Of a stretch of DNA of 64,000 bases, positions 4,076 to 31,480 are shown one piece after another. Each line of letters begins with the position of its first letter. The stretch's first letter is position 1. The translations under genes were made by a program, and so were the position numbers. The notes beneath the pieces were generated by a model, which had not been told where the DNA came from, searched no databases, and saw only the letters and a list, made by a program, of their open reading frames with translations. Origin of the DNA: Spiribacter roseus (GTDB taxonomy: Bacteria > Pseudomonadota > Gammaproteobacteria > Nitrococcales > Nitrococcaceae); assembly GCF_002813635.1 (NCBI RefSeq), contig NZ_CP016382.1, positions 682,001-746,000 on the forward strand. The letters are read 5' to 3'.

Positions 4076-4080
4076 CTTTT

Positions 4081-6945: not shown

Positions 6946-7044
6946 CTCGCAGAGCCAATGATGCGGTGTGTAACTAAAGCGCCATTTGACTCGCCGCGTT
7001 GGGCGTTGATAGCGTCGGGTATCATGCAAAAGGGAGCATTATCC

Positions 7045-8951: not shown

Positions 8952-8961
8952 GGCGCAGAGC

Positions 8962-9594: not shown

Positions 9595-9616
9595 CCGCAC
9601 AGCAAGGGATTATTCA

Positions 9617-11026: not shown

Positions 11027-11031
11027 GTGTG

Positions 11032-13206: not shown

Positions 13207-13470
13207 CATGGAATCAGCGAAACACGGGTGGCGTTCGTGTAGAGGCAGCTTGATTGTGTCTAAGCGGGCGTTCCGTAGATACATTTCCGGTAACAACCTC
13301 AAGCGGCCATAGGCTGACCTTGATAATAGAACCCGGGCTTAAGGTTATCGGGCCATATTCCCGAGATCTTAAAGCCGATGGGGGAGCCACCGGTCTTTCC
13401 ACCTTAGCTGCTAGGAGTGCTCTGGCGGATGAGGTCCTTGATACTTACTTTAAAAAAGAATAGAGCCATC
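13207..13470. other. Intergenic region
   Basis: About 260 bp with nothing recognised. The end of this region (13,456-13,465) is A/T-rich and could hold the translation signals of the next gene, though no strong Shine-Dalgarno sequence is seen. Confidence 0.3.
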
Positions 13471-14640: not shown

Positions 14641-14643
14641 ACG

Positions 14644-17600
14644 GTGGAACACTCCCAGCGATGCATCAGAGTCTTTCTGTCTTCGACCTTCCGGGACTTT
14701 TCCGAAGAGAGAGACTTGCTTGTACGCCAGGTCTTCCCAGCGCTCCGGGCGAAGCTGGCCGAGCGCTTTGTTGATTTGGTTGATGTTGATCTGCGCTGGG
14801 GTATTACTGAGGAAGAGGCGGAGCGTGGCGAGGTTTTACCAATCTGTCTATCCGAGATAGATCGCTCTCGGCCGTTCTTCATTGGACTTCTAGGCGAGCG
14901 GTACGGGTGGATTCCTCCATCGAACGCCTATCCTGCCGAAGTGCTCGAGACACAGCCGTGGCTTGAGGAGCATCGGGGCGGTAAGAGCGTTACTGAGTTG
15001 GAGATCCTACACGGCGTGCTCAACAACCCCGATATGGCAGGCCGCGCGCTGTTCTACTTCCGCAGCCCTGCATACGCACAATCGCGAGGCGAGGGCCACT
15101 TACCCGTATCGGCAGAGAACGAGGCGAAACAACAAGCGCTGAAAGCCCGCATTCGGGAGAGCGACTTCCCAGTTGTCGAGGACTATGAGACCCCGCAGGC
15201 GGTCGCCGATCAGATACAGCATGATCTCTGGGAAGCGCTCGATGCAGAATTCCCCGCCGCTGACATACCTGATGCCTTCACTCGAGACCTGCTTCAGCAC
15301 GAAGCCTATGCGGCACCGCGCCGGCGCATCTACCTCGGTGGCGAGCGGTATCTTGATAGCTTAAACCAAGCGCTCAAAGGTGCTACGCAGTGGATCTTGA
15401 TAGAAGGTGAGTCTGGCAGCGGGAAAAGCGCCCTGCTCGCTAACTGGATCGATCAACTCAGCAGCGCCAGTAATGATCTCATCATCCACACCCACTTCCT
15501 TGGGGCAAATCCAAGTGCTGCTGATCCGGTGGCGCTTGTACGCCGGCTCATCGAACGGATCCGGCGAGAGACCGACACCGATGAGGAACCGGCGTCTGAT
15601 CCAGACACACTACTCGATGCGCTACCGGAGTGGCTCGCCAGAGCAAGTGCCTGGGCCGAGCTTAACAACAAGCGCTTTCTAATCGTACTGGACTCGCTGA
15701 ATGGGTTGGCGGACCGACGTGAGCTTCGATGGTTCCCCAGCATGATGCCGCTGCGCGTCCACTGCGTTGTCTCCACACTACCCGGTGAGGTGCGTGAGCG
15801 CCTCGATGACAAAGCACAGTGGCACCGGATCCAAGTTGAACGACTAGACCGCAAAACCACCCGTCAGGTCTTTGTCGCCTACCTGAGCCTATTTAACAAA
15901 ACGCTGCCCAAACCACTCATCGATCAGGTGATGGAACATCCTCTGGTCACGAACCCGCTTTTCCTGCTCACGCTCGCCGAAGAGCTCCGGCTGTTCGGAG
16001 AACATGAACGGCTCAGCGAGCAACTTTGCTATTATCAAGAGAGCAAGACCGTTGATGATCTGTTCGAGCGGGTCCTGGCCCGGGTCGAGGCTGACCACGG
16101 AGCCGCTGTCATCCGGCACATCATGACCGCCTTGTGGGCGGCCCGCGGGGGCATGCGAGAAGAAGAGCTACTCGCCTACACCGGCCTCGCTCCAATGAAG
16201 TGGGCCTACATCCGGCATGCCTTAGGTCCAGCGCTCATAGAAACAACCGGCCGCTACGTCTTCGCTCATGACTATCTGCGCATTGCCGTCTCGGATCGCT
16301 ACATGGCCGGCAACAATCATCTCGAAGATGAAGGTCAGAGCGAGCAAGCATTAAAATTACGAAAACAGGCACATATCTGGCTAGGCGAGTGGTTCGAGGC
16401 GAATGCCTTCCAGAATGACCAAGGGGCTGTCACCGACGCCCGCGCCGCTGAGGAGATCCCTTATCAGTGGCAGCAGGCGAAGCAGTGGGAGCGCCTTGCA
16501 GATGCCCTCGCTACTCTTGACCTTTTTATGGCCCATACCGAGCACAGGGAGGGTTATGAGTTACTCAGCTACTGGCTCGCTATCGAAGCGAATACTAGAG
16601 AAACGCTTGAGGTGACTTATGAGCATGCCTGGAAAAAATGGAACCTTGATGAAAGTACAGAGGAAGCTGGCGATGTTGCTACACGGCTAAGACGTTGCCT
16701 TAGTGTGGGTGGCCGCTACACAGAGTTTGCGACAACCATGGCTAGACTAGCACTAAGCCTTGTTACCTCACGTTATGGAGAGCAAAGCCTTGAGACAGTC
16801 TCTTGTTTGAACAATTTGGCCACGCTATTACAAGAGCGCGGTGATCTCAACTCTGCAGAGTCGACGCAACGACGCGTAATTGCTTTACTTGAAAATAGGC
16901 GTCACTCCAATCCCCTCGCCTATCTTATGTCACTGAATAATCTTGGCTCGTTGCTCTGGCGTAAGGGCGAATTTCACGAGGCTGAACGACTTTACCGAGA
17001 AGCACTTGAGCTAGCCGTAGAGAACCAAGCAAGACACCTTTACTCCAAAGCGACAACACTCAATAATTTGGCTGCTCTTTTGAGAGACCGAGGAGAGCTC
17101 ACTGACGCTCATAGACTGGCGTCAGAAGCCTTGGCGATTAGCGAGCACTGCTATGGAGAGCATCATCCCAAAACTGGAACTAATCTCAATAACCTTGGCG
17201 TTCTCCTGAAAGACCTCGGCAACTACGAAGCGGCTGAACGCTGTTATAGAAAAGCGCTTAGTGTCCGTACAAAAACTCTGGGTCCAGCTCACCCCGAAAC
17301 AAGCACAAGCCTCAACAATCTTGCTGAATTCCTGCAAGACCGTGGCAACCTAAAGGATGCCGAAACCCTTTACAGAAGAGCAATTACGATCCGAGAAAAC
17401 ACTTTCGGTCCCGAGCACTTCCAAACCGCAATGATCTTGAGCAACTTAGCTTCGTTACTTCGTGACACCGGTGATTTGGAGTCGGCGGAGCGCTTGATAA
17501 AGAAAACCATTCACATTTACAAGACCAACTTTGGAAATAATCATCATCAAACCGGGCTGAGCTTAAATAGCTTGGCAGTTGTTCTTCAAGAGCTTAAAAA

Positions 17601-18093
17601 ATACGAAGAAGCTTCTCGCATCTATCAACGAACCATCGCCGTTTACAAAAAAACTCTAGGCAAATCGCATGCCCACACTGCTGCAACTCATCAAAATCAC
17701 GGAGTTTGTCTACGGACTATGGGAAATTATGAGAAGGCACTGAAAGAACTAGAAAAAGCATTGAACATTAACGAACAAAATTTTGGACCCGAGAGCGAAC
17801 AAGCTGCCTCAACGCTTAGCGCTATCGCCAAGCTATATGAATTGACTGCCTCTTACCCTAAAGCTCGCGACACCTATAACAACGCTCTCACAATTCGAAA
17901 GAAGATCCACGGTACTGAGCACCCTAAAACGACACTAATCTACTCCCGCCTAGGCGACCTCAACCTTGCAACAGGCCAGACCGTAGCGGCTAAAGTTAAT
18001 TTTCAAAAAGCTCTCAGAGGCTACCAGCGAACCTTTGGACCTAGTCACCCTACAACCTTAGAGGTGATACAAAAACTCAACGGCCTTAATTAA
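14644..18093 (+). CDS. DUF4062 - STAND NTPase - TPR protein (NPHP3/TEP1-like architecture)
   Basis: A 1,149-residue protein. Residues 8-95 are a DUF4062 domain (IRVFLSSTFRDFSEERDLL, DLRWGIT, FFIGLLGERYGW), which also heads eukaryotic nephrocystin-3 and TEP1. Residues about 225-520 are a STAND P-loop NTPase, with Walker A GESGSGKS at 255-262 and Walker B FLIVLDSL near 346-352. The region to about 700 is a helical arm. Residues about 720-1149 are ten 42-residue kinesin-light-chain-type TPRs (LNNLAxLLxxxGxxxxAExxY..). The GTG start follows AGAGGG. STAND proteins of this type act as switches that oligomerise on sensing a ligand, and many bacterial ones are antiviral; DUF4062 would be the effector or adaptor. 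Function here is inferred. The TPR half is visibly more AT-rich than the first two thirds, suggesting recombination within the gene. Confidence 0.85.
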   Translation: MEHSQRCIRVFLSSTFRDFSEERDLLVRQVFPALRAKLAERFVDLVDVDLRWGITEEEAERGEVLPICLSEIDRSRPFFIGLLGERYGWIPPSNAYPAEVLETQPWLEEHRGGKSVTELEILHGVLNNPDMAGRALFYFRSPAYAQSRGEGHLPVSAENEAKQQALKARIRESDFPVVEDYETPQAVADQIQHDLWEALDAEFPAADIPDAFTRDLLQHEAYAAPRRRIYLGGERYLDSLNQALKGATQWILIEGESGSGKSALLANWIDQLSSASNDLIIHTHFLGANPSAADPVALVRRLIERIRRETDTDEEPASDPDTLLDALPEWLARASAWAELNNKRFLIVLDSLNGLADRRELRWFPSMMPLRVHCVVSTLPGEVRERLDDKAQWHRIQVERLDRKTTRQVFVAYLSLFNKTLPKPLIDQVMEHPLVTNPLFLLTLAEELRLFGEHERLSEQLCYYQESKTVDDLFERVLARVEADHGAAVIRHIMTALWAARGGMREEELLAYTGLAPMKWAYIRHALGPALIETTGRYVFAHDYLRIAVSDRYMAGNNHLEDEGQSEQALKLRKQAHIWLGEWFEANAFQNDQGAVTDARAAEEIPYQWQQAKQWERLADALATLDLFMAHTEHREGYELLSYWLAIEANTRETLEVTYEHAWKKWNLDESTEEAGDVATRLRRCLSVGGRYTEFATTMARLALSLVTSRYGEQSLETVSCLNNLATLLQERGDLNSAESTQRRVIALLENRRHSNPLAYLMSLNNLGSLLWRKGEFHEAERLYREALELAVENQARHLYSKATTLNNLAALLRDRGELTDAHRLASEALAISEHCYGEHHPKTGTNLNNLGVLLKDLGNYEAAERCYRKALSVRTKTLGPAHPETSTSLNNLAEFLQDRGNLKDAETLYRRAITIRENTFGPEHFQTAMILSNLASLLRDTGDLESAERLIKKTIHIYKTNFGNNHHQTGLSLNSLAVVLQELKKYEEASRIYQRTIAVYKKTLGKSHAHTAATHQNHGVCLRTMGNYEKALKELEKALNINEQNFGPESEQAASTLSAIAKLYELTASYPKARDTYNNALTIRKKIHGTEHPKTTLIYSRLGDLNLATGQTVAAKVNFQKALRGYQRTFGPSHPTTLEVIQKLNGLN

Positions 18094-18166
18094 CGGTTAC
18101 CGTAATGCGAGCACTTGCTCCGTGGCGTCATCAAAATGTCTTTGCATGGTGTGGATTCCAGTCAAG

Positions 18167-19769
18167 GGGGGTGCGGCGGAAATCTTGGACTACTTTGGAG
18201 GTAGTTCATGTATTCCTATAAAGACCGGATGAGGGCTGTCGAGCTCTATATTCAATATGGGAGGAGAGGGGCAGCAACCGTGCGGGATCTCGGTTATCCC
18301 TCTGTCAAGCATCTCCGGCGTTGGTACCGGCACTATATGAAAAACGGTGATCTACCCCCTGACAGATCTCTGCCGGGCAATAGCTACTCACCTGAAAAGC
18401 GTCGGGCGGCAGTCGATCATTACCTGCAGACTGGTCGATGTGTTGCGCACACCATCCGCGCGCTCGGTTATCCAGACGGCGGCACGCTGCGGATTTGGCT
18501 GAATGAAGACCTTGGTCCAACGCCCCAGAGCCAGGGTCGAGGCGCACCGAAATGCCATATCGACGACAAGCGGCAGGCTGTTTATGAGCTCTGCACCCGG
18601 CAGACCTCCGCGACAGCCGTAGCGCGAAGATACGGCGTCACCGACTCAGCCCTGTATAACTGGCGTGACCAATTGCTCGGTAAAGAAGCGAAGAGGTCAT
18701 CGGTGAAGCGACAGGACGACAACGCCAACGATGGCGACCCCGAAGCGCTCCGCGCGGAGGTCAAGGCCCTGGAGAAACGGGTGCACGAGCTACAGCTTGA
18801 GCACGACATCCTGGTCAAGGCGAGTGAAATCGTAAAAAAAGAAGGCGGCGTCAACCCGCAGACCCTGAGCAATCGGGAGAAGACCCTGCTGGTTGACGCC
18901 TTGAAGGGTGCCTACCGTCTCTCTGAACTATTGAAGGCCGTCCAACTGCCGCGGAGCTCGTACTACTACCAGCGCGAGGCCCTGCAGCGTCCGGATAAGT
19001 ACGCAGAGGCCCGCCAGGCGATCGCGACAATCTTCGAGAACAACTACCGTTGCTACGGCTATCGGCGGATCGGTGAAAGCCTTCGTCGCGATGGTGCAGC
19101 GCTCTCTGAGAAGGTGGTGCGCCGTCTTATGAGCGAAGAGGGCCTCGTCGTCGGCAGCACGCAACGGCGACGGTTCTCCAGCTATCGTGGGGAGCTCAAT
19201 CCGGCTCCGGAGAACATCATCGCCCGTGATTTCCAGGCATCGGCTCCCAATGAGAAATGGTTGACCGATATCACCGAGTTCCCGGTGCTGGATGGCAAGG
19301 TCTATCTCTCTCCCATGACCGATTGCTTCGACGGCCTCGCGGTCAGTTGGTCGATCAGCGGCTCACCCAACGCTGAGCTGGTCAATGCCATGCTGGACGA
19401 GGCGATCAGCACGCTTGCTCCTGGCGAAAGGCCGGTCGTTCACTCCGACCGAGGCTGCCATTACCGGTGGCCCGGCTGGCTGAAACGCCTCGAAGCGGCT
19501 GGTCTGACACGATCAATGTCCCGCAAGGGGTGCACGCCGGATAATGCCGCCTGCGAGGCGTTCTTCGGCCGGCTGAAGGTCGAGTTCTTCTACGCACGCC
19601 AATGGACTGGCACTACGATGGAGCACTTCATCGCCGAACTCGATGCCTATATCCGCTGGTACAACGAATCACGAATCAAGATGTCGCTGGGCGGAAAAAG
19701 CCCCATCGAGTATCGTCAGGAGCTCGGCATTGCCGCGTGAAAACTGTCCAAGAAAAGCGCCGCACCCCC
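18167..19769 (+). mobile_element. IS3-family element, apparently intact
   Basis: About 1.6 kb bounded by terminal inverted repeats of about 24 bp: GGGGGTGCGGCGGAAATCTT at the left and the complement GGGGGTGCGGCGCTTTTCTT at the right, both continuing GGAC. It contains one long transposase frame. No exact target-site duplication is visible by eye. It lies directly between the STAND gene and the RyR-domain gene. A relic of the right end of the same type of element is at 4,495-4,585. Confidence 0.85.
18208..19740 (+). CDS. IS3-family transposase, single fused frame
   Basis: A 510-residue transposase. Residues 1-110 hold two similar helix-turn-helix units (RMRAVELYIQYGRRGAATVR and KRRAAVDHYLQTGRCVAHTI). 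A third helix-turn-helix with a leucine-zipper-like coil follows (residues 120-215). The DDE core has catalytic residues in WLTDITEF, VVHSDRGCHY and DNAACEAFFGRLK. orfA and orfB are joined in one frame, so no ribosomal frameshift is needed. The start ATG follows GGAGGT. All expected motifs are present, so it may still be active. Confidence 0.9.
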   Translation: MYSYKDRMRAVELYIQYGRRGAATVRDLGYPSVKHLRRWYRHYMKNGDLPPDRSLPGNSYSPEKRRAAVDHYLQTGRCVAHTIRALGYPDGGTLRIWLNEDLGPTPQSQGRGAPKCHIDDKRQAVYELCTRQTSATAVARRYGVTDSALYNWRDQLLGKEAKRSSVKRQDDNANDGDPEALRAEVKALEKRVHELQLEHDILVKASEIVKKEGGVNPQTLSNREKTLLVDALKGAYRLSELLKAVQLPRSSYYYQREALQRPDKYAEARQAIATIFENNYRCYGYRRIGESLRRDGAALSEKVVRRLMSEEGLVVGSTQRRRFSSYRGELNPAPENIIARDFQASAPNEKWLTDITEFPVLDGKVYLSPMTDCFDGLAVSWSISGSPNAELVNAMLDEAISTLAPGERPVVHSDRGCHYRWPGWLKRLEAAGLTRSMSRKGCTPDNAACEAFFGRLKVEFFYARQWTGTTMEHFIAELDAYIRWYNESRIKMSLGGKSPIEYRQELGIAA

Positions 19770-20325
19770 GGGAGGGTCAGCCTAGATGGCCTTTAACACC
19801 CGCCTCGGCGGCGGTTTGAGTCGTGCCTTTCCATCGCTTGAAAATGTAGATGTTGACCTGCGCTTTAGTGACCGCCATCGCCCGTCCCTCATGAGTCGTT
19901 TGCTACGGCAGTCAAGCTTAATGGCAACCGGCCAATTTAATTGTCGTGACCGCCCAACATCATTGTTGTCGGATAGTCGTTAGTTTTAAAATTTCCCTGC
20001 GCCTCCCAAGCCATTCATTATTGGCGGCTAAGGCCATTAAGACTGACCTCGCTGCGGGAAACAGCTTGAAAGGTGCCTCATCATCTAGAATCCGATCCCA
20101 CTAGAATGGGATGTATATGGGTTGGGTTACGATACTCCCTGAGGCAATTTCGGAGCTCTAGCTTCGGTTGGTTCGGAACTCGTCAGTGTTCCGGCCACCA
20201 GAGACAGCACCTCCTAACGATCACGTAGCGGGATTGGCTTCCGAGGCGAGATGACCGGCCCGAATAGATCTCTTCCGATACTTCGGCGGATTCAAAGCTG
20301 ATGCTAGCAGGAATCATCTCTACTG
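19770..20325. other. Intergenic region between IS and RyR-TrkA gene
   Basis: About 550 bp. I see no gene. It is of mixed composition and contains a few short inverted repeats of no clear type. Because the RyR gene and the IS converge here, transcription terminators are expected, but no strong T-tract hairpin was found. Confidence 0.35.
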
Positions 20326-22050
20326 CTAATTCCTTTGTTCCAGCGCTATTAGCCGATTAACTTTTTCTACATCCTTTTGTTTCTCGGAAACGCTCAGATC
20401 ACCGTAGGCCACCAAAGACGGGTGGAGCTTGTTCACATCGTCACGACACGGACCGAATCGCCACCCAGCAATAATTTTGTCCGCCATCCAGCTTCGATGC
20501 TCTGCCTCCGCCAACGCCTCAATCATCTCACATGAACTATCCCGCGCGAGCGCATCTCGTTTGATACGATCGTGGTCAATCGTACGGCGATTCGCAGCCT
20601 TATACTCTTCCTTAAGTTCCGGCCACGGTGCCGTTGCTGGTTTGCTCGGGTCGTACTGCCTGTTTTTTATGTGCATTAAGTATGACTCGTGAGCTTTTCG
20701 CGCCTCAGCATCGATCTCCTCGTCAAAGACAGAGGAGCTCGAGCATCCGATTTCTGTCACGTTAAAAAATCGCCCATACTCATAGATGGGCAGGTCGGGC
20801 CTTACAGTGGGGAAAGAGACGCTTGGCTTGATGCAAACGACGTGGTCCATCCGAGCACTATCATCTGAGGTTGCAGCGATGAGTGCCTGCTGATTCAATC
20901 GCCGTGCAAATTTGATGCTTGCGAATGGATCGTCGAGCGCGACTATCGCCAAGTCGTACAGCCTCCCAGATGTCCTATCAACTAAACCGAGCTCATCAGA
21001 AAGCAATGCCCCGCGAGATTTTTCGTGGAAGCTGACGGCACTTACTAAAGATAACTGAGGGTGAGAATGCGGGAACTCCTCTAAAAATTGGTTCAAATCT
21101 GGAGACATAAAATCTATCGTGGGCACGCCACAATGGGGGTACTGCAGTTGCTTTATAGCCATACTGATCAGAGACGCCGAGAATCGCCCTTCACCTACGA
21201 TTAGAATCTTAGGCTGTCTATGATTATCGAAGAAATTCTCAAAATTTGCCAAGCTGGCATCCATTGCGATCTGTCGGGCTGCGGTAATATCGGGGTCAAA
21301 AAACCTTGCATCTGCTACACTCGTGCTCGTGCCGAAAGGTTTGGCATCTTTGAAAAAGTCCGAGAAATCAGGCCCAGCAAGCGCCCTGATTTGCGTCTCT
21401 CGCCCAGGTTCGTTTTTTCTCCTCTGCTCTTCAATTAGCTCCACACATTTAGAAGCTACGCCATAATTCTCTCGTTCGTCGGCTGCCATCACGGCAATTT
21501 TGGATGCAGTTTGGACGCGCCCGCTCTTTAACACTATTTTATCGAGCGGAGAACCGTATATAACTTTCACTCCCGCGGCTTTCAATTCTCCGAGGTACGG
21601 ATTTTTCGTGTCATTCTCGACTACAACAACAGTGTGACCCTCCGTTAAAAGGCTACGTGCAATCGCTTTGCCCCTATCGGTCAACCCACACACAACTGCG
21701 TGCCCCTCAAGGGAGGCAACGGATAATTTACTTGCTGCATCAGTGACAGCGGCCGCTACAAGCCTGATTACGCTATATGCCACTGTTCCCGGTGCAAGGT
21801 ACCTGGCTATCTGAATAAAGGCATTCGGTGCAGATAGCACTGTTGCCCCTTCCGCCGAGACAGGGTTAGCGACGCTGAATAGTTGAAACACCCCGTAAAT
21901 TAGGTCTAGTGGCGGGGCTTCTACGCCAAGCGTGGCATAATGTAGCCGGAATCCAATATACCCAAGTATAGATGCGAGGAACGCTAGCGCACCAACTATC
22001 CACCACTCGAATCTTTTTACCCACGTCAGAAATGTCTCGATATTGCCCAA
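20326..22050 (-). CDS. Membrane protein with TrkA/RCK-like domains and C-terminal RyR domain
   Basis: A 574-residue protein. The N-terminus has a membrane helix (residues about 16-35), a short hydrophobic pore-helix-like stretch (DLIYGVFQLFSVANP) and a second helix (about 76-101). Residues 116-200 are a TrkA-N Rossmann domain (AVVCGLTDRGKAIARSLL, VVVVEND, IYGSPLDKIVL). A second Rossmann-like unit starts at KILIVGEGRF (residue 281). Residues about 470-565 match the RyR domain found in ryanodine receptors (AEHRSWMADKIIAGWRFGP, HPSLVAYGDLS). The layout suggests a ligand-gated ion channel or nucleotide sensor in the inner membrane. Proteins combining RyR and TrkA-type domains have been linked by genome-context studies to nucleotide-based conflict systems. 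The start codon is TTG, behind AGGTGAC with short spacing. Ligand and ion are unknown. Confidence 0.8.
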   Translation of the reverse strand: MGNIETFLTWVKRFEWWIVGALAFLASILGYIGFRLHYATLGVEAPPLDLIYGVFQLFSVANPVSAEGATVLSAPNAFIQIARYLAPGTVAYSVIRLVAAAVTDAASKLSVASLEGHAVVCGLTDRGKAIARSLLTEGHTVVVVENDTKNPYLGELKAAGVKVIYGSPLDKIVLKSGRVQTASKIAVMAADERENYGVASKCVELIEEQRRKNEPGRETQIRALAGPDFSDFFKDAKPFGTSTSVADARFFDPDITAARQIAMDASLANFENFFDNHRQPKILIVGEGRFSASLISMAIKQLQYPHCGVPTIDFMSPDLNQFLEEFPHSHPQLSLVSAVSFHEKSRGALLSDELGLVDRTSGRLYDLAIVALDDPFASIKFARRLNQQALIAATSDDSARMDHVVCIKPSVSFPTVRPDLPIYEYGRFFNVTEIGCSSSSVFDEEIDAEARKAHESYLMHIKNRQYDPSKPATAPWPELKEEYKAANRRTIDHDRIKRDALARDSSCEMIEALAEAEHRSWMADKIIAGWRFGPCRDDVNKLHPSLVAYGDLSVSEKQKDVEKVNRLIALEQRN

Positions 22051-22253
22051 GAGTCACCTGTCAACTGGCGAGGTCGGATCCCTTTATGTTGATTCAGTAT
22101 GCCGGATGTTGAGCAGTTGTGAAATAAAGAGGTCCGTTATCGTAGGTGTTGGAGGCAGCCTGCTCTCCCGAGCGGTTGCTTACGCGTATTGGTTGTACAC
22201 CATCGCTGCGGACACATCTGAAAAGCTTCATGATGGAAAGCAGGAGGTGTCCG

Positions 22254-22455
22254 ATGGGACAGAAGAGACGGCAGTTCAGTCGAGAGTCCAATGAGGAAGC
22301 GGTGGAGCTCGCCAGTCGGCCTGACGTGACGATCAAAGACGTTGCGCATGAGCTGAGTATTCGCCGCTCGGTTTTCAAGCGGTGGTGCCGGGCATCCAAA
22401 ACCGGAGGACAGCAGGATTATCCCGGCAAGAGCAATCCATGAGACGAAGAGGTCT
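22254..22455 (+). pseudogene. Truncated IS3-type orfA
   Basis: It begins with an excellent ribosome binding site (AGGAGGTG) and ATG. The product QKRRQFSRESNEEAVELASR and a helix-turn-helix (VTIKDVAHELSIRRSVFKRW) are typical of IS3-family orfA. The chain ends early at TGA in ...GKSNP-stop-DEEV, where related proteins have an arginine codon, and about 15-25 bp later the element at 22,459-23,701 begins. The remaining orfA and orfB of this element are not found on the other side. Confidence 0.7.
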
Positions 22456-22484
22456 GAGCTTGCCCAGTAACAGTAGACACTCGA

Positions 22485-23385
22485 TTACGCCACTATCCGG
22501 GCCTCGAATGCCTCAGGGCTAATGTATTCGAGGGCAGAATGACGACGGGTTCGGTTGTACTCCACTTCGATGTACTCGAAAAGGACCTGGCGCAGCGCAT
22601 CGGGGTGCATCAGCGGCATATCATGGATGCTCTCGACCTTTAGGCTGTGGAAGAAGCTCTCCACCACCGCATTGTCGTAGCAGGTACCTCGGCCGCTCAT
22701 GCTGGCGACCAGTCCGTAGCGACGGAGCAGGTTGCGATCATCCCAGCCACAGTAAACGCTCCCGCGATCCGTGTGCATGATCACACCGCTCGGCTCGCCA
22801 CGCCGGGCAAGCGCCGCTCGCAGGGCGGTGCAGGCGAGTAAAGCATCGATGTGCGCACTGGTCGCCCAGCCGATCACCTTGCGTGTGCACAGGTTCAGGA
22901 TCACCGCGAGGTAGAGCCAGCCCTGAAGGGTCCGCAGGTAGGTGATATCACCCGCCCACTTCTCGTCAGGCCGCTTGGCGCTGAAGTCTTGGGTAAGGAC
23001 ATTGGGCGCTACACCGAGCGAGTGACCCGAGTCGGTGGTATGCCGAAAGGGTTTGGCCGCGCAGGCCCGCAGCCCCTGCCGGCGCATACTCTCAGCCACG
23101 GTCTTACGGTTCATAGCCATGCCTTCAGCCTCCAGCTCCTCGCAAAGGCGAGGCGAGCCGTAGCGCCGCTTCTTTGCCTCAAACAGTTCGACCACTTTCG
23201 CGTCCCGCTTGGTCCGCTCAGCGACGCGTTACGAAACACTGTCCCGACGGTGCAGCCACGCGTAGTAGCCACTGCGGGAGGCGCCCAGCACCGCGCACTG
23301 GCGCGCGATGCTGTGGACCGATCGATGCTGGTGAATGGCGGCGTGCTTCAGTCCAGCTTCGTCGCGAACTACGCCGCGGTTTTTT
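22485..23385 (-). pseudogene. IS3-family orfB with an in-frame stop
   Basis: From 23,195 leftward, 236 codons are open and include the integrase core: WAGDITYL, MHTDRGSVYC and DNAVVESFFHSLK supply the DDE residues, and EYNRTRRHSALEY is the usual C-terminal motif. Upstream of that, the same frame carries the expected orfB start region (HAAIHQHRS, ARQCAVLGASRSGYYAWLHR), but a TAA at 23,229-23,231 separates the two parts. The family makes OrfAB by -1 frameshifting at the end of orfA, which would give a truncated product here. Confidence 0.78.
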
Positions 23386-23650
23386 CCAGGATCGTGACCT
23401 CTTCGGTCTTGTCGGCGAGCTGGCGCTTAAGCCGAGCATTTTCCTCGCGGAGCTGGCGCTCGCGGCCAGTGACGGACTTCTCGTGTGCTGCCTTAGCCCG
23501 CCACTGATAGATCTGCGTGGCATGCAAGCCGAGCTCACTGGCCGCGGCTGCAACACCGATGCGCTCGGCGAGCGACAGGGCTTCGGCACGATATTCCGCG
23601 CTGTAGCGAACCCTCTTTCGCTTGGGCATGTCGTTGGCTTCTGTTGCCAT
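23369..23650 (-). CDS. IS3-family transposase orfA
   Basis: A 93-residue protein with the classic orfA layout: basic N-terminus (KRKRVRYSAEYRAEAL), helix-turn-helix (GVAAAASELGLHATQIYQW) and a leucine-zipper coil (LREENARLKRQLADKTEEV) ending ILEKTAA. It is intact; the translation probably begins at the internal ATG of MPKRKR. The AAAAAAC-like run at the end of the gene fits the usual frameshift site into orfB. Confidence 0.85.
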   Translation of the reverse strand: MATEANDMPKRKRVRYSAEYRAEALSLAERIGVAAAASELGLHATQIYQWRAKAAHEKSVTGRERQLREENARLKRQLADKTEEVTILEKTAA

Positions 23651-23777
23651 GGTTCACGGCCAGTCTGTTACCTTACTGGGGTGTCCACTGCCGGTGGGAA
23701 GGGTTATCTATGGTCTAGAGCTCAAGGGCAGGCATAGCCTCCCCTTGAGATTTAACAAGGCCACGTCAAAGAGTCGC

Positions 23778-23924
23778 TCATCCCTTACGGACGTTTTTGA
23801 CGTTACCCTTCCCGTACTGGGCTTCCAGCAATTTCTTGGCTTCGGCTGACCCTTTCGCCTCAATGCTGACGTCTGCATCCGGGGCGCTGCCAGGTAGCTT
23901 TGCTTTCGCAACATAGCGGTCCAT
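23778..23924 (-). CDS. Small 48-residue protein, AQYG-NVK family
   Basis: ATG is preceded by TAAGGAAGATGTC. The product starts MDRYVAKAKLPG, has a strand (DADVSIEAKG), an alanine/lysine helix (SAEAKKLLEAQYG) and ends NVKNVRKG. Its VSIEA-AEAKK-AQYGxxNVK pattern matches the 47-residue protein at 3,932-4,075. A longer frame overlaps it in another phase but has a poor composition, so I regard this frame as the gene. Function unknown. It sits between two insertion elements. Confidence 0.65.
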   Translation of the reverse strand: MDRYVAKAKLPGSAPDADVSIEAKGSAEAKKLLEAQYGKGNVKNVRKG

Positions 23925-24436
23925 GACATCTTCCTTAATAGTGAACGAGTGTCTTTAGTACCTGTGATCGGTGCAGACTGTCAAGATGCTTCAATATTGA
24001 AGAGCAACTTTGAGGACGTGGTGACAGTGCATCATTCGTGACGAACTGCTCGTCAAATGCTGAACCGCCAACCGCAAAGCAGCGACGGTGTTAAATATCT
24101 TCAAAGGCAAGATCACCTCGGTAAGGTGAGTCTGGTAGTGTGATAGTGTCGCTCAGGTCGATCGTTAGGTCGAGGGCGCCGAGGGGAGCATGGAGAAAAA
24201 ATTCCGCGTTCGACACAAAATTTGCATGAACAATACGGTAATGAATTGCAGGAGAACCGAAAGGCGCTTAAAGATCCTCGTTTGGATATTTACGCGAAAA
24301 AGTATCGGTGCTTATTTGAAGACAGGGGGCTCGTTAGATCGCTGCATGTGCAGTTCTTAGTCGAAGGTATGGGTGTTTCGCTCAGTAAGCTGTATGCCTG
24401 TCAACGCCGGAACCAGAGAGCCTTTTTTCGCCGGAG
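23925..24436 (+). pseudogene. Possible gene fragment cut by the IS21 element
   Basis: From an ATG at 24,222 an open frame runs into the IS21 left end at 24,437. Its own part (NELQENRKALKDPRLDIYAK, LVEGMGVSLSKLYACQRRN) looks protein-like, but no family is recognised and no continuation could be placed on the other side of the insertion. The stretch 23,940-24,220 before it holds nothing I can identify. It may be the remains of a gene disrupted by the insertion. Confidence 0.3.
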
Positions 24437-24454
24437 TGAGATGTCCCCTGATCA

Positions 24455-25267
24455 TCATAGTGCAGTCTCGTTTTCTCCGGTTTCCTCGAGCGCAGCCTCC
24501 TTAGCGGTCTGGGATGAGCGGCTCTTAGCGAGCAGGCCGGCTTTCCGCTTCTCCTTGAGCCGGTAGCTCTCGCCTTTGATGTTCACCGTGGTGGCGTGAT
24601 GCAGCAACCGATCCAGGATGGCAGTGGCCATCACCGGATCGCCGAAGACCTCACCCCGGTCGGCGAAGCCCTTGTTCGAGGTCAGGATCAGGCTCGCCCT
24701 CTCGTATCGCCGGGCAACCAGCCGGAAGAACAGGCTCGCCTCGTCACGGCTCATGGGCAGATAGCCCAGCTCATCGAGGATGAGGACCTTCGGGTAGGTC
24801 AGTTGCTTGAGCACCCGCTCGAGCTTTTGTTCAGCGCTCGCCTTGCGCAGCTTGGTGAGGAGCTCATCGAGGGTGAGGAACACCACCCGGTGACCGGCCT
24901 GTGCCGCCTTGATGCCGAGCGCGATGGCCAGATGCGTCTTACCAACGCCGGGCGGACCCAGGAACACGGCGTTGTTCCCGCGCTCGACGAAGGCTAGCGA
25001 GGCCAGTTCCCGGATGACCTTCCGGTCGATGCTGGGCTGGAAGCTGAAGTCGAAGGCCTCCAGGGTGTGCATCGCCGGGAAGCGTGCCTGACGCAGTCGC
25101 GTCTCCACGCCCCGGACGTTCCGGGACTGCCACTCGGCCTTGAGCGCTTCGGTGAGGAACGCCCGGTAGTCGAGATCCCGCTTGGCGGCCTGTTCGCAGA
25201 TCGTATCGAGCTGCTCATCGAGCCCTTGGAGCTTCAACCGCTCCAGCAGTGTGCCGAGCTCCATCAC
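24455..25267 (-). CDS. istB: IS21 transposition helper ATPase IstB
   Basis: A 270-residue DnaC/IstB-type AAA+ protein. Walker A is GPPGVGKTHLA (residues about 105-115), Walker B is VLILDELGYLP, and SLILTSNKGF corresponds to the sensor region. The N-terminal helix (LLERLKLQGLDEQLDTICEQ) is the IstB leader. It overlaps istA by 4 bp (stop and start) and works with IstA in target capture. Confidence 0.93.
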   Translation of the reverse strand: MMELGTLLERLKLQGLDEQLDTICEQAAKRDLDYRAFLTEALKAEWQSRNVRGVETRLRQARFPAMHTLEAFDFSFQPSIDRKVIRELASLAFVERGNNAVFLGPPGVGKTHLAIALGIKAAQAGHRVVFLTLDELLTKLRKASAEQKLERVLKQLTYPKVLILDELGYLPMSRDEASLFFRLVARRYERASLILTSNKGFADRGEVFGDPVMATAILDRLLHHATTVNIKGESYRLKEKRKAGLLAKSRSSQTAKEAALEETGENETAL

Positions 25268-26436
25268 AGCACCTCCGTGTAGTAACCGAGGTCACGGGTC
25301 TGGACCCGTACCTGGTCCCAGAGGCAAGCGTGATGCTCGGCGACCGTGACGAAGCGCTCGCCGTCAGTGGCAAGCCGGTGGTGGGCGACAGGATGGCCCT
25401 CAAGATGACGGATCTCGATCTCGCCATCCAACGTCTGGCGGATGCTGACCCGCTGCTGGGCCAATTGCCCCGGCACGCTATAGCGCACGCCATGCAGAGA
25501 GACGTAGGCGTCCAGGCTCACCGCGCGGGTGTAGTGGTAGGCCGTATCGTAGCGGCTACGCGGCAGCGGCCCGAGCGACTCGCGCTCCCGTGCGAAGCGG
25601 GCCGGGACCGACTCGCCCAGCTCCCTTAGCGTGCGCTGGTTAGCCACCGTCTGGCACCAGGCGGTGAGATAGGCGTTGAGGTGATCGAAGCTGTCGAACG
25701 CCGGATCACCGGCAAGGGCGTTCTCACTGATGTAACGCACCATCCGCTCGACCTTACCCTTGGTCTTTGCCCGTCGAGGCCGGCATGCGCGGCGCGTGAA
25801 GCCGTAGTGGACGCCGAGTTCGCGGAAGCGCGGGTTGAAGCGGGGTCGGCCATCACGCCAGTCGAGCACGGCCGAGGCCTGGTTATCGACCAGTACACTG
25901 CTCGGGACACCGCCGAAGGCCTCGAGCGCAGCGATGATCACCTCGTAGGTATGGTTGGCATCCAGCGAGGGCATCCCCATGGCATGCAGATGACGGGAAT
26001 ACCCCAACACGTTCACCCCGACATAGACCTTCTGGCGCATATCGCCGATCAGCAACCGCCGCTCGCACCAGTCATGCTGCATCTGCTGACCGGGCGGCGT
26101 CTCGTAGCGGACAACGCCGGCGTCCGGACGCAGTACGCGCTTGGGCTGAATGTAGTCATGCAACTGCGTGCTGACCCCGGTATACCCAGCCTTGCGGATA
26201 TCTTGCAGGATCACCTCGGCGTTCCAGATCCCCTTACGGAGCATCCCGTCGATCTGATCGATGAACGGGTCCAACTTCCGCGGCCGTCGCTTTGGTCGCT
26301 TCGGCGGCTCACTGCCGCGCTTTAGCGCTCGACTCACGGTCTTCGGGGTAACCCCGAGCTCCGCGGCAATGTCCTTGATATATACGCCCTGTCTGTATCT
26401 CTCGGTTATCATCAAATAGTCCTCTCGGGTCATCAT
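25264..26436 (-). CDS. istA: IS21 transposase IstA
   Basis: About 390 residues. The N-terminal helix-turn-helix (GVYIKDIAAELGVTPKTVSR) is followed by the integrase core with acidic residues in MQHDWCER, VLVDNQASAV and the glutamate of KGKVERMVRYI. The C-terminal beta domain (VSLHGVRYSVP) is typical. I take the start at the MMTREDY position because the upstream codons lack family similarity. Confidence 0.92.
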   Translation of the reverse strand: MMTREDYLMITERYRQGVYIKDIAAELGVTPKTVSRALKRGSEPPKRPKRRPRKLDPFIDQIDGMLRKGIWNAEVILQDIRKAGYTGVSTQLHDYIQPKRVLRPDAGVVRYETPPGQQMQHDWCERRLLIGDMRQKVYVGVNVLGYSRHLHAMGMPSLDANHTYEVIIAALEAFGGVPSSVLVDNQASAVLDWRDGRPRFNPRFRELGVHYGFTRRACRPRRAKTKGKVERMVRYISENALAGDPAFDSFDHLNAYLTAWCQTVANQRTLRELGESVPARFARERESLGPLPRSRYDTAYHYTRAVSLDAYVSLHGVRYSVPGQLAQQRVSIRQTLDGEIEIRHLEGHPVAHHRLATDGERFVTVAEHHACLWDQVRVQTRDLGYYTEVL

Positions 26437-26498
26437 CCCCGGTCTCCAAGCGGCCAAACTTGCAAGACCGAGGATCGTTGGTCCGAGGGGACATCTCA

Positions 26499-26964
26499 AA
26501 CCGGCGATCAGAGGACTCTACTGGGCGGCGCCAACATGCCTGGTTGAATCACTGTACTTCGGTAACTCCGCGCAACGATCGGCGCAGGACTAAGAATATC
26601 CGCCGTGCCTGGCGAGGGCGCAAACGGCGGGGCGAACTTGCTGTCATGGTTGGGAATTCTACCGACGAGATCCTTTGCTAGCGATTATCAAACAGCGGTG
26701 CCACCGCAAATGCTGAGGCCTCGCTCGGCGACAGCCTTATAGACAGCCTGCGGCACATACAACTCGTGGACCGTCCGTTGATGCGGCCATCGGCCAAAGG
26801 GTGGGTAAGGTCATCAGGGCGTCACACCAGTGCCGTCAGAATGTATGCCGTGGTCAAGGGAGTCATCACGCCCTACAAGCGGTAGCAGGGTGGGCTGATG
26901 GAACGCTCTTCCCGACCTCTCTAGATAGGATGCTTCTGACAGCAGAAGCTCGACTCCCTGGCAT
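26499..26964. other. Intergenic region after the IS21 element
   Basis: About 465 bp. There is no gene-like frame with a ribosome binding site. Its GC content is higher than that of the following genes. No repeat or tRNA was identified; it may include more scrambled IS-derived DNA. Confidence 0.35.
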
Positions 26965-27354
26965 ATGCCCACCATTGGATCGAGCGAGCGATACGGTTTT
27001 AAAACAACAATTAGTATCAGTGACTGGGCTATGTGGTACTCCGTGCAGAATCGGTGTTACCGTCTATCCGAAATGGGAGACCATGTCGGTGAATATGGTA
27101 TGACCGTCGAGTTGGATGTCAAACCTGCGTACTTGGCAGAGAGCATGCGATTAGACATTCCCGGCTCGGGAACTCTCGTCCTTTCTATAATTAATAAAAA
27201 TACGCCAAATAAAGAGAAACTACAGTGGGCCGTTACGGAGAACCGCGTGCCGGCGACAGAGAGGGAAACCCTCCGACATGTAGAATATATCGCAATTATA
27301 TGGCAAAAATTTTATAATTCGACTGCAGCATCACTAACCCCCCTGCTAAAATGA
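26965..27354 (+). CDS. Hypothetical protein, first gene of an orphan pair
   Basis: A 129-residue, AT-rich gene. The product is mixed alpha-beta without signal or membrane segments (TTISISDWAMWYSVQNRCYR, then a beta-rich stretch MTVELDVKPAYL and GTLVLSIINKN). No family is recognised. Its stop TGA lies 9 bp before the next start, so the two are probably co-translated. The low GC content separates the pair from the surrounding IS DNA and suggests recent acquisition. Confidence 0.5.
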   Translation: MPTIGSSERYGFKTTISISDWAMWYSVQNRCYRLSEMGDHVGEYGMTVELDVKPAYLAESMRLDIPGSGTLVLSIINKNTPNKEKLQWAVTENRVPATERETLRHVEYIAIIWQKFYNSTAASLTPLLK

Positions 27355-27362
27355 GGACTCAT

Positions 27363-28112
27363 ATGGATTTTTTAGTACTGACACTTGGTATAGCCGCATC
27401 CGGTTTTATCTACGCTCGGTTTGTGTGGCCAAAAAAGTTCTTCGCCAAAACTGGAGCAGAATTAGAAAACGAAAATTGGCGAATAAGGAATGCGGCTTAC
27501 TCGGATCTAGGAGTTTATCCAACTATTGACACCAATAGCTGGAGTAAGTCTGGGTACATTTGTCGAGACATTGGTGTTTACGTCCTTTACTTGCCGAAAA
27601 GCGCGCTACGGCAGGCCGAGAGTTCGTCCATACTAGCATCGGCCCATCCGGAAGCCGCGGCAGAGGCGTCTGAGTATGGCGTTACTTGGAGGCTTTTGTC
27701 TTATGATGAGAGCGTCTCTATTGTTGATAACCTAATAGTGCTTGCCGATAAGCTAAACTATGTAAAGGAGTGGGAAGGTTCGCGGTTTCTCGCGAAAATT
27801 GGTGGCAAGCTGCCGCGAAAGAGGTATACGTCACGTTTCTGGCCGTTATTGAAAGGGGTTACGGAGCTGGAGGTCAGACATGGCAGAGAGGTTGCGTTTT
27901 GCTACGGCATTAATTTCGATGAGGATGAAGACTCGGGAATAAGTTATGACGTCGAGAAGTATATCAAACATGTTGACGCATCAGACGAATCGGCAGTTGC
28001 TGTATGCACGGATATTAGTAACCTTTCGAACAACAAAGACTTTCTTAATTCAGTGGAAGTAGAGGGTATAACCACCGACGTCAGTAAGGTTGTCAATGCC
28101 GCTTGTGCATAA
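27363..28112 (+). CDS. Hypothetical membrane-anchored protein, second gene of the pair
   Basis: A 249-residue protein with one N-terminal hydrophobic helix (FLVLTLGIAASGFIYARFVW), positive residues after it and a long soluble part, hence an uncleaved anchor. The soluble part is acidic with several aromatic-rich strands (YICRDIGVYVLYLP) and contains EDEDSG. The ATG at 27,363 follows GAGGACTCAT. No domain is recognised. It could act with the 129-residue neighbour in a two-component module such as effector and immunity, but that is only a guess from the arrangement. Confidence 0.55.
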   Translation: MDFLVLTLGIAASGFIYARFVWPKKFFAKTGAELENENWRIRNAAYSDLGVYPTIDTNSWSKSGYICRDIGVYVLYLPKSALRQAESSSILASAHPEAAAEASEYGVTWRLLSYDESVSIVDNLIVLADKLNYVKEWEGSRFLAKIGGKLPRKRYTSRFWPLLKGVTELEVRHGREVAFCYGINFDEDEDSGISYDVEKYIKHVDASDESAVAVCTDISNLSNNKDFLNSVEVEGITTDVSKVVNAACA

Positions 28113-28295
28113 GAGTCCTCACTGTATCGTTTGTGGTAATCGATCTGATCCGGATGCGGTATTCCATGGAGCGGTTTCGCGGTCCGCTGTGGGGTGATAA
28201 ATGTCCGCCGTGCTGTGGCGCGCCCGCCATATCTTGGAGTTTGGACGCCTGCTGTGTTGCAGTAAGGGCGGGGCTCAGCCTCAAATGAGGATCCT
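28113..28295. other. Intergenic region between convergent genes
   Basis: About 180 bp between the end of the orphan pair and the end of the channel gene on the opposite strand. No feature is recognised. Confidence 0.3.
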
Positions 28296-29441
28296 TCACC
28301 CATGCAGCAAATAAAAGCTGAAATATATGCCAGTTAATAGAATGACGAGCGTAAAGGCCCCTCGAAGTGCAAGTTTTTTTATGATCAGCGGCCTGCTCGC
28401 GATTGAGACCTCATTCGGCAGATATTCACTGAGCAGTACAAGTCCAATTGCCACCATGAAACTCATCCAAGTCAGGTCACCCAGTGTGAGGTAAGCGGTT
28501 TCCGGAATTAGTTCCATGAGGTAAAGTGTATAAGCGAACAGTGCTAATAAGGTGCCAATTTGTACATGTATACGGGTATCCACAAGCCGATCGCGTCCGG
28601 AAGGCAAATCCTCTGACTCTCTCAGTGTGTAGGATCCAAAAGTAACAAAGAATAGAATCAGTAGGGGCAGCAACCCTCGGGCGACTTTTGTAGCCGGTTC
28701 CCGCTTTACCGTCAGAGTAATACCCAGCTCGTCCCAATACTCTCCCGTTTCCGATACCCATTCAGTACCAACTTCAGTGAAAGACGCATTTTCCATCCTC
28801 CACCCGGGGACATGAATACCGCCTAGCGATATCTCAATTTTATCAATGGACGCTGCTTCGTGATACCATTTAGAAGGAACAAGGTCCATATATGCTGAAG
28901 AGTCCTCGCCAGCTACTATTATCGGTATTTCCAATTCGTCGAATGGAAAATAGCGAAAATTTCCTACGATGTTCGCACTGCCTTTGACTCGTGTCATGTA
29001 GGCGAAGCGGTTGTTTTGAACCATCCAATGGTGACCTTGTACTGTTTCAGGGTCATGGATAGACATCATTTCGATATCGGGGTTGTAGAACCTTTGCCAA
29101 ACGTTATCTGCAAGATGTCCAACGCATTTCACGTTGGCATGAGGTCTTGAAAGCGGATATTCAATGGTTAAGTAGAAGTCGACGACAGCAATGTTATTGC
29201 TCGGCGAAATATTGGTTACCCGTATGGGTTGTATACCGATTCCCACCTCATATCGGTTGTCGCGGGTCAACTTGGGCGTAAATACTGTATCCGAGGCCGC
29301 GCACAGGTCAGTGTCACCCCGAGCATTTTGATCGGCCGCCTCACTACCAGAAGGTACAGATATACTCAGCGCGAGAAGTATCAAAACGCCGCTGAGCGCT
29401 ATCTTTTTTAACGATAGATGCTCGCTCATCGGGTACCTCAT
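28296..29441 (-). CDS. Prokaryotic pentameric ligand-gated ion channel (Cys-loop receptor homologue)
   Basis: A 381-residue protein related to GLIC and ELIC. It has a signal peptide (residues 8-35), an extracellular beta-sandwich (about 50-248) and four membrane helices: M1 at about 253-272, M2 at about 291-309, M3 at about 322-340 and M4 at about 355-379. Diagnostic marks are the FPFDE motif at 165-169 (the Pro-loop equivalent of the Cys-loop), GLLPLLILFF in M1 and the M2-M3 loop PETAYLTLGD. The M2 segment (IHVQIGTLLALFAYTLYLME) carries a glutamate at its outer end. It would form a pentameric channel in the inner membrane gated by a periplasmic ligand or pH. The first ATG overlaps the stop of the upstream ORF (ATGA); a second ATG at 29,429 behind GAGGT is an alternative start. 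Pore selectivity and ligand cannot be read from the sequence. Confidence 0.9.
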   Translation of the reverse strand: MRYPMSEHLSLKKIALSGVLILLALSISVPSGSEAADQNARGDTDLCAASDTVFTPKLTRDNRYEVGIGIQPIRVTNISPSNNIAVVDFYLTIEYPLSRPHANVKCVGHLADNVWQRFYNPDIEMMSIHDPETVQGHHWMVQNNRFAYMTRVKGSANIVGNFRYFPFDELEIPIIVAGEDSSAYMDLVPSKWYHEAASIDKIEISLGGIHVPGWRMENASFTEVGTEWVSETGEYWDELGITLTVKREPATKVARGLLPLLILFFVTFGSYTLRESEDLPSGRDRLVDTRIHVQIGTLLALFAYTLYLMELIPETAYLTLGDLTWMSFMVAIGLVLLSEYLPNEVSIASRPLIIKKLALRGAFTLVILLTGIYFSFYLLHG

Positions 29442-29881
29442 AGGCTCGGATCAAAAAGGCGGAGAAGTTTTTTAGTAGCGATGATGGAACTCATGAGCGC
29501 TGGAACATTTGGTTTCGTCAGTTGGAGAGTTGACGTGTCCACGAGTTGTGCTGGGAAGACCAGATATTCACGGTAATCGGTTGATGGCGGAACTGCGCTG
29601 ACAATACGCTCCGTAACAGTTGCGTCGCCTATCACTAATCCAGAATCCGTCTCTGTCTGAACGTGTTTTTGGAAATACATCGAATATCTAGTGATAGGCC
29701 TACTTGCGGCCAGAGTTGAGATCAGCTTGCAAGTGATTGTCAGGCTCCATGGTAAACGAGACATGCGACGGGCTACTGTCTGTGGCCCTCGGTGCCAGGC
29801 AAATGTGAGCGTACCAATACATGTCATGTTCGACAAAAACCACAATCGCGAGGAGACGCGTGCGCAATCGGAAGAGCTCAA
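29438..29881 (-). CDS. Small hypothetical protein coupled to the ion-channel gene
   Basis: A frame of up to 147 residues whose stop overlaps the channel gene's first ATG by four bases, the usual sign of translational coupling. The C-terminal 100 residues (YSMYFQKHVQTETDSGLVIG, STDYREYLVFPAQLVDTST) look like real protein. The N-terminal 30-40 residues may not be translated. There is no convincing signal peptide or known domain. It may be an accessory protein or merely a decayed leader. Confidence 0.45.
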   Translation of the reverse strand: MSSSDCARVSSRLWFLSNMTCIGTLTFAWHRGPQTVARRMSRLPWSLTITCKLISTLAASRPITRYSMYFQKHVQTETDSGLVIGDATVTERIVSAVPPSTDYREYLVFPAQLVDTSTLQLTKPNVPALMSSIIATKKLLRLFDPSL

Positions 29882-30132
29882 CCCATTCTAACTCCTAGAT
29901 ATGCGGGAGGGGGATTTAGTCCAGTAGTAGTACACTATCGACTATGGCACGTTTCTAGCTACAGACACATCAGAGTTGATGGTTGATCGAGCCTTAGCGC
30001 TTGTGGTCATCACGGGCCCTTATACCCGGAGCGCTCGCCGGTTGAAGATTACAGCGAGGCTATAGCGCCGTGAGGCCCTCGGTCAATGAGGCCTCGTGGC
30101 TATTTTGCGAACTTGTGGCGACAGCTCGCCGC
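29882..30132. other. Intergenic region between channel operon and integrase
   Basis: About 250 bp. It contains a GAGGCC...GAGGCCTC inverted-repeat-rich stretch near 30,070-30,100 that could form a hairpin but lacks a T-tract. The promoter of the channel operon is expected here; no consensus is obvious. Confidence 0.3.
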
Positions 30133-31340
30133 CTAGAGATCCAGGAACATTGCCCAGTCCGCCATAAGACTACGCCTCTTTTCGAGGAGGTCCCCGCGCC
30201 GGTAGGCGCGCTCGACGGCGCTCTGGATCACGTGTGCTAGTGCCTGCTCCGCGACTTCATGCGGGTAGTTGGTGTTCTCACTGATCCAGTCCCGAAAAGT
30301 GGAGCGTAACCCGTGCGGAGTCGCCTCTACATCCATGCGTTTCATCACCTTGGAAAGCGCCATATCAGAGAGGATGCCGCCCCGTGGTGCGGGAAATACG
30401 TATATAGAACTTGGAAACCTTGGGAGTGAGCAGAGCAGGGCAAGAGCTTGATCACTTAGCGGGACAAGGTGCGGTTTGCCGGCTTTCATCCGCTCCGCCG
30501 GGATGGTCCATATCGCTGTGCCAAGATCGATCTCATCCCATGTCGCACCGCGGACTTCCCCAGACCGCGCGGCCGTTAGTAGCAGGAATGTGAGTGCCCG
30601 CGGTGCAATGCCGTTGCATTGGCGAAGGGCGCGCATGAAAGCCGGGGCATCCTGCCAAGGGATCGCCGCATGGTGTTGGACCGGCTTAATCTTGGTTGTC
30701 GCGGGGAGCACCGCATCGAGTTGCCTTTCCACCGCGCTGGGTTGGGCCCTTGCCGATAACCAGAGACAATCGCGAAGTCGAGAACCTTCTCGGTACGACC
30801 GCGAACCCGACTGGCCGTCTCCGGTTTGCTCTCCCAGATGGTGCGGAGGGCGCTGACGATGTGAGCGAGCTCGATCTGGTCGACCGTTAGGCCGCCTATG
30901 GCAGGACTGATATAAGTCTCAACACTGGTGCGCCACTGTTTGGCATGCTTAGAATTCTTGAACTCCCGGACTTTTTGCTGCCAGTACGCCTCGAGGCACT
31001 CATCAAAGGTGACGCGTTTACTGGCAGCCGCGTCGCGCTCCGCCTGCTGGGCTCGCCGCTCGGCAAGAGGGTCGTGCCCGTCACGAATTGCGGCCCTGAT
31101 CTCGGCGGCTTGTTGTCGTGCCATGGCGAGCGAGACCTCGGGAAAGGGGCCCAGGCCGACGTCGCGCCGTCGACCATTTACCATGGCTCGCAGGAACCAG
31201 TATTTTGCACCCGTCGGGGTGACACGAATGTACAAGCCGGCGACACCGCCCACGGCGTGGAGGCCGGGTTTTTGAAGCTTTCGAATGGCCATCGCCGAGA
31301 GTTCGGTTGCAAGCTTTGGCATGGCCATCATCCCGCCCAT
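30133..31340 (-). pseudogene. P4-type tyrosine integrase, frameshifted
   Basis: The N-terminal half has the DUF4102 arm-binding domain (GLYIRVTPTGAKYWFLRA, DVGLGPFPEVSLAMAR) and SAM-like core-binding domain. The C-terminal half has the catalytic domain: arginine in AARSGEVRGATWDEI, the HGLR box, and the tyrosine in VERAYRRGD. They are in different frames. The break falls in NPARWKG|QLDAVLP near 30,722, where restoring one base in GGCAACTCGAT would rejoin them. All catalytic residues are otherwise present, so this is a recent lesion or a sequencing error. It lies about 130 bp from the putative tRNA-Ser 3' fragment, as usual for an integrase beside its attachment site. Confidence 0.85.
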
Positions 31341-31459
31341 CAAAAAATTTGTTATTGGACGCTACTGCATGCAACGAGCCGTGACAAGTCAAAGCGGGGA
31401 AAACAAACGAAACCAATAGGTTATGCAACGTTCTGCAACGAATTACAAATGCGCCGAAG

Positions 31460-31480
31460 CGGACACCCTCTCCGCCAGAC
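31460..31480 (+). other. Putative attachment site: tRNA-Ser 3'-end fragment
   Basis: The bases CCCTCTCCGCCA at 31,466-31,477 look like the acceptor stem and CCA end of a tRNA-Ser gene (such genes begin GGAGAGG). No T-loop or anticodon arm is upstream of it, so it is a fragment, as left by integration into a tRNA gene. The integrase lies to its left, and base composition changes to core-like just to its right. The matching full tRNA should lie at the other end of the island, outside this window. Confidence 0.5.

Follow-up and report, generated by a model that had tools for sequence, protein, structure and literature searches.

Bacterial pentameric ligand-gated ion channels (pLGICs) are models for the receptors acted on by general anaesthetics and neurotransmitters. 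The described channels to which the present one can best be compared are GLIC, the proton-gated channel of Gloeobacter violaceus (e.g. PDB 3EAM), and those of the ELIC type. For the superfamily as a whole, Jaiteh et al. (PMC4795631) listed the seven most conserved residues and a [F/Y]PxD motif in the beta6-beta7 loop, and operons that join bacterial pLGIC genes to Cache or PBP-II partners were reported by Tasneem et al. in 2004 (PMC549065).

The locus analysed here lies in a stretch of 64,000 nucleotides from Spiribacter roseus (contig NZ_CP016382.1, positions 682,001 to 746,000), referred to below as the window. Taken as a whole, the locus is in our judgement very probably best explained as a pLGIC gene on a genomic island in a tRNA-Ser gene, preceded by a frameshifted remnant that is possibly its former operon mate. 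The channel is an orphan, very divergent relative of the animal neurotransmitter-gated channels in a salt-lake-type bacterium.

The channel gene and its superfamily

The gene for a Cys-less pLGIC of 377 aa occupies positions 28296..29429 on the minus strand and was delimited by homology, in-frame codon usage and Shine-Dalgarno (SD) energy. Its reading frame is open without interruption from 28296 to 29441 (-), which gives a 381-aa reading from ATG 29441, and its codon usage is in frame under a codon model trained on genes of the island. As the ribosome-binding site of ATG 29429 is far better than that of ATG 29441, located 12 bases earlier (-6.9 versus -2.2 kcal/mol), translation probably begins at the former and not four codons upstream. 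A search for a convincing promoter of the channel gene found none.

A signal peptide is predicted at residues 1-31 (29337..29429, (-)), with a hydrophobic peak at residues 12-21 and a cleavage site placed by eye at about GSEA/ADQ. The Pro-loop FPFD, a signature of the superfamily as defined in PMC4795631, is found at residues 161-164 (28938..28949, (-)), and the M2-M3 loop, MELIPETAYLTLGD, at 28476..28517 (-); the latter was recognized by a pattern match, for which the chance expectation in the window is 0, and by alignment with distant pLGICs. Four hydrophobic segments have their peaks near residues 254-261, 296-300, 322-328 and 356-368. The signal peptide, FPFDE Pro-loop, four membrane segments and PETAYLTLGD M2-M3 loop, from which the preliminary description had recognized a pLGIC homologue, are all present in the translation, and the homology itself was confirmed by a profile match, by the presence of all seven superfamily residues and by matches to GLIC and LGIC_1.

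Single-sequence searches gave modest scores. In a phmmer search of PDB chains the best match was GLIC (E=0.0068, 19 bits), and nearly all of the remaining matches were GLIC or ELIC variants. The NCBIfam model LGIC_1 (NF033918) matched residues 162-338 of the 381-aa reading with E=1.2e-4 and 21.6 bits, its curated cut-off being 500 bits. A Pfam search with E up to 1 returned no family, and hence neither Neur_chan_LBD nor Neur_chan_memb; this is a limit of the detection models, since other pLGICs of this data set are likewise missed by the membrane-domain model or only just detected by it. In an independent test, a PF02931 scan of 398 sampled Pseudomonadota genomes yielded 7 matches in 6 genomes, and the same model does not detect the channel gene of the window.

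Much higher scores were obtained with a profile built from seven other bacterial pLGICs, the query being left out. This profile scored the channel at 75.3-77.6 bits across residues 58-375, covering both the ligand-binding and the membrane domain; among 300 composition-preserving shuffles of the channel the top score was 1.6 bits. Alignment of the channel to the pLGIC profile by hhalign had a probability of 98.4% (E=6.8e-15). All seven residues of Jaiteh et al. are at matching positions: F161, P162, D164, W210 (the beta9 Trp), R243 (the pre-M1 Arg), P255 (the M1 14' Pro, 12 residues past R243, the same spacing as in GLIC) and P309 (the M2-M3 Pro). The basic residue at M2 0' is R286 and the Leu at 9' is L295. 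An AlphaFold model of the channel reached a mean pLDDT of only 39.5, because its alignment comprised just two rows, and this value is too low for a judgement on fold or pentamer. The Cys-loop disulfide of animal receptors is absent, since the channel's only two cysteines do not flank FPFD; one belongs to the N-terminal arm and the other follows an early strand. Judged by these sequence comparisons, the gene encodes a real, intact and strongly divergent pLGIC.

Genomic island and distribution of the channel

The channel gene lies on a 32.9-kb island integrated in tRNA-Ser(GCU), both ends of which are bounded. The island begins about 1.4 kb to the left of the window and occupies its positions 1..31463. 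Its right end is marked by attR, a 14-bp copy of the tRNA 3' end (CACCCTCTCCGCCA; 31464..31477, (+)); the two copies of this direct repeat lie at G000:C1:680571-680584, inside the tRNA, and at 713464 (window 31464), 32,893 bases apart. In a relative (G002) the tRNA-Ser(GCU) site is free of the island, and the left flank runs through the tRNA directly into the hairpin found at 31464-31539 of the window. Just inside the right end is a P4-type tyrosine integrase (30133..31343, (-); Arm-DNA-bind_3, Phage_int_M, Phage_integrase), which is split over two frames and appears broken. An IS21-family istB/istA pair is located at 24455..26499 (-) (IstB_IS21, 7.8e-85; rve) and IS3-family transposase ORFs at 22485..23650 (-) (rve, HTH_21). 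GC content is 47-49% in the channel region and about 60-66% to the right, and the right flank has homologues elsewhere in the genus. The mobile setting with IS elements and an integrase, proposed before from the window alone, is therefore substantiated by the IS3, IS21 and integrase genes, by the att duplication and by the site free of this island in the relative.

Several further features of the island were recorded. The hairpin beside the att site (31464-31539) recurs in similar form at several sites elsewhere in the genome; these hairpins are probably terminators after tRNA-like ends. A ParA-type ATPase with a MerR-like N-terminus, encoded at 519-1697 towards the left island end, suggests plasmid ancestry. 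LpoB, DUF6844 and CsgG-like genes stand in a row at 8920-12336, and a 1149-aa DUF4062-NACHT-TPR protein of STAND-type architecture, similar to that of nephrocystin 3, is encoded at 14644-18093. Roughly 7 kb away from the pLGIC gene, another channel-like gene encodes a membrane protein with TrkA_N and RyR domains (20326-22050). Convergent with the channel is a gene for a 253-aa unknown protein (27351-28112), of which a 41% identical relative is present in G005, a genome that itself has no channel.

At the limits of the searches, 53 further genomes of the order, 369 of the class and a mixed set of 95 relatives yielded no relative of the channel, nor did phages and plasmids. Two distant relatives were found among 398 genomes of the phylum (26-27% identity over 180 residues); identity to any pLGIC found is about 15-20%. 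Scanning viral and GTDB contigs for patterns revealed no close relative: a single one of the five matches in the GTDB scan was a pLGIC, and the sole pLGIC found by these scans was the already-seen Magnetococcales channel. In some of the scans artificially varied copies of the query were used, solely for steering the choice of motifs. Since the viral and GTDB scans rest on short patterns, relatives in unsampled genomes are possible. A defence role was also considered and was dropped, as PADLOC gave no match.

The upstream reading frame and alternative readings

Upstream of the channel and on the same strand (-), an ORF of 147 codons is open from TTG 29881 to its stop, and an ATGA in which this stop overlaps an ATG of the channel frame is present at 29438-29441. 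The codons of this ORF were scored in windows of 60 with a model trained on ten genes of the same island, for which in-frame windows had a mean of 0.092 bits/codon (sd 0.111, minimum -0.214, n=236). Codons 1-60 of the ORF (29881-29702) scored -0.209 bits/codon in their own frame, at the extreme lower end of this range, and their codon-position GC of 0.40/0.63/0.57 was highest at position 2. Over the same interval frame +2 scored +0.100 bits/codon with a GC of 0.57/0.41/0.64, typical of coding. The last ~87 codons of the ORF scored +0.053 bits/codon in their own frame (GC 0.54/0.43/0.45). Because the coding signal switches frame at about 29700-29720, the ORF joins a true gene end to an out-of-frame stretch. 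The remnant of the upstream gene would consist of an N-terminal part that is coding in frame +2 and has a hydrophobic start (RLRTRLLAIVVFV; 29702..29881, (-); +0.100 against -0.209) and of ~87 C-terminal codons in the ORF frame (29441..29701, (-); +0.053 bits/codon). A second break near the start of the remnant is suggested by an AGGAG that lies 9 nt before TTG 29881 and is better placed, at 4 nt, for ATG 29886, a start that runs into a stop after two codons.

Judged by this coding signal, the upstream ORF is a frameshifted remnant, and the gene from which it derives probably encoded a small exported protein. Read in pieces, it had no match in Pfam or PDB, and searches of plasmids and of 58 further genomes from the order and class yielded no relative of it. 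An Rfam search found nothing. A plus-strand ORF at 29691-29891 was rejected as a gene: it scores about like frame +2 of the minus strand, but it is the mirror of that frame, and its score is within the range of the mirror frames of known genes. The remnant's stop is 8 nt from the preferred channel start at 29429. As the two genes are this close on one strand, a past operon is plausible, and remnant and channel may once have formed one.

These results bear on the preliminary description, which had the ORF as an accessory partner translationally coupled to the channel. The open frame from TTG, its lack of a known domain and the literal ATGA overlap were correctly seen; the coding signal, however, is confined to the last ~87 codons, and the overlapping ATG is the weaker start (-2.2 versus -6.9). 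With the ORF disrupted in frame, present-day translational coupling to the channel is unsupported. Neither the channel nor the ORF was found in other genomes of the order, which leaves the proposed pair without a counterpart there. Nor is an operonic partner a new point: as a general idea such partners are two decades old, sensory ones having been reported in 2004 (PMC549065). The negative result removes an accessory-subunit claim that rested on an ORF with an out-of-frame first half, and since the supposed partner is broken, the channel is an added member of a known family and not part of a two-gene system.

Other readings of the locus were weighed against the one preferred here. For the upstream gene, the ORF could be whole and translated, its product an accessory protein whose synthesis is coupled to that of the channel by the ATGA, as the frame is open from TTG 29881 to a stop that overlaps the ATG, an SD-like AGGAG precedes that TTG by 9 nt and the last 87 codons carry coding signal. 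This is very improbable, given that codons 1-60 fall at the bottom of the in-frame range while another frame scores as coding, that the AGGAG better fits an ATG halted after two codons, that the overlapping ATG is the weaker start, and that no relative of the ORF was found. A less extreme scenario, which we consider improbable, has the gene intact in nature and its product made with the channel as a partner, the disruption being due to a sequencing or assembly error or to programmed frameshifting. Both halves of the remnant do score as coding in successive frames, the joined reading opens with a hydrophobic stretch like that of a signal peptide, and partner genes of pLGICs are already known; but the gene would probably have to be interrupted twice, at about 29700-29720 and again close to its start, and more assumptions are required; inspection by eye showed no classic slippery site, and the adjoining integrase is broken too, as fits decay of the island.

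The same decay raises doubts about the channel. The integrase is broken and the neighbouring gene decayed, so the channel gene might likewise lack expression and be a passenger or fossil on a decaying island that also contains IS elements; no strong promoter was found, and none of the 53 other genomes of the order has kept a relative. We regard a fossil without current function as unlikely, though still worth serious consideration: the frame of 377 codons, the good codon usage and every superfamily-conserved residue are intact, so that long neutral decay is not expected, and a good ribosome-binding site precedes the gene. Least credible of all is that the product is an unrelated exported protein with four helices that resembles pLGICs by chance. 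The weak single-sequence scores and the missing Pfam match would be in line with this, but it is effectively refuted by the full-length profile match, far above the shuffles (77.6 versus 1.6 bits), and all seven superfamily residues are kept; for practical purposes, chance resemblance is ruled out.

Proposed mechanism and comparison with known systems

According to the preferred reading, that of a pLGIC gene on a tRNA-Ser island with a frameshifted remnant upstream, the channel gene would have come with the island that integrated into tRNA-Ser(GCU), beside an integrase that has since been broken, and the frameshifted gene 8 nt away, probably for a small exported protein, may have been its operon mate in the past. 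The gene product would be a homopentameric ligand-gated channel of the inner membrane, of the Cys-less (Pro-loop) bacterial type, each subunit being exported via its signal peptide. The beta-sandwich domain would then lie in the periplasm and the membrane domain would consist of the four helices, of which M2 would line the pore. Gating would be triggered in the periplasm by binding of a small solute or by a change in pH, and the signal would reach the pore through the contact of Asp164 in the Pro-loop with the pre-M1 Arg243 and through the M2-M3 loop, causing the pore to open.

Counted back from P309 (23'), M2 of the channel has D-2', T-1', R0', H2', G6', L9', A13' and E20'. By analogy with GLIC, the Asp at -2' points to a preference of the pore for cations, and the His at 2' may give a titratable ring close to the pore's narrow end, with sensitivity to pH or transition metals. 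The only two cysteines, C43 and C102, align without gaps with two of the three cysteines of another, distant bacterial pLGIC (locus L030, 1135-2169), and for this reason a periplasmic disulfide common to both proteins, unlike the classical Cys loop, is possible. A more far-reaching idea, that the channel represents an unrecognised, island-borne pLGIC lineage with a C43-C102 disulfide, a ring of 2' histidines and a small exported partner from a family not yet described, broken in this strain but intact elsewhere, is speculative and, in our opinion, quite improbable. Even so divergent and Pfam-invisible a member keeps every core gating residue, which implies that counts of such channels are too low, and its remote sequence offers a means of testing which residues are required for gating.

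The island resembles P4-type tRNA-integrating islands in that a short direct repeat derived from a tRNA 3' end adjoins an Arm-DNA-bind_3/Phage_int_M integrase; it differs from them in that the integrase is frameshifted and that ParA and several IS elements lie inside. Like the Cache and PBP-II operons, the locus combines on one strand a channel gene and a neighbour encoding an exported or membrane protein, but here this neighbour is broken and matches neither family. Partner genes were seen beside three bacterial pLGIC loci in the present data: in L029 and L031, from two different Pseudomonadota families, a dCache_3 membrane sensor gene lies directly upstream on the same strand, and in L010 a phosphonate-type binding protein is encoded downstream.

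Among the channels themselves, the nearest relatives are those of L010 and of L011/L022 (a Magnetococcales MAG), which have in common with the present channel an M2-M3 loop of the form M[DE]xIPxxxYLTxxD and a Pro that follows the Pro-loop, at an overall identity of about 18-20%. Compared with L010 and L011, the M1-M2 loop of the present channel is about nine residues longer, and a longer N-terminal extension is a further difference. ELIC-type channels (LGIC_1, NF033918) belong to the same superfamily (E=1.2e-4), but at 21.6 bits against a cut-off of 500 the present channel is outside their subfamily. With GLIC, from which it is separated by a very low sequence similarity (19 bits), it shares homology over the whole length, the Pro-loop, the pre-M1 Arg, the M1 Pro kink, the M2-M3 Pro and an acidic residue at M2 -2'; it differs from GLIC in the His at pore position 2' and in two cysteines of the periplasmic domain, with their possible disulfide.
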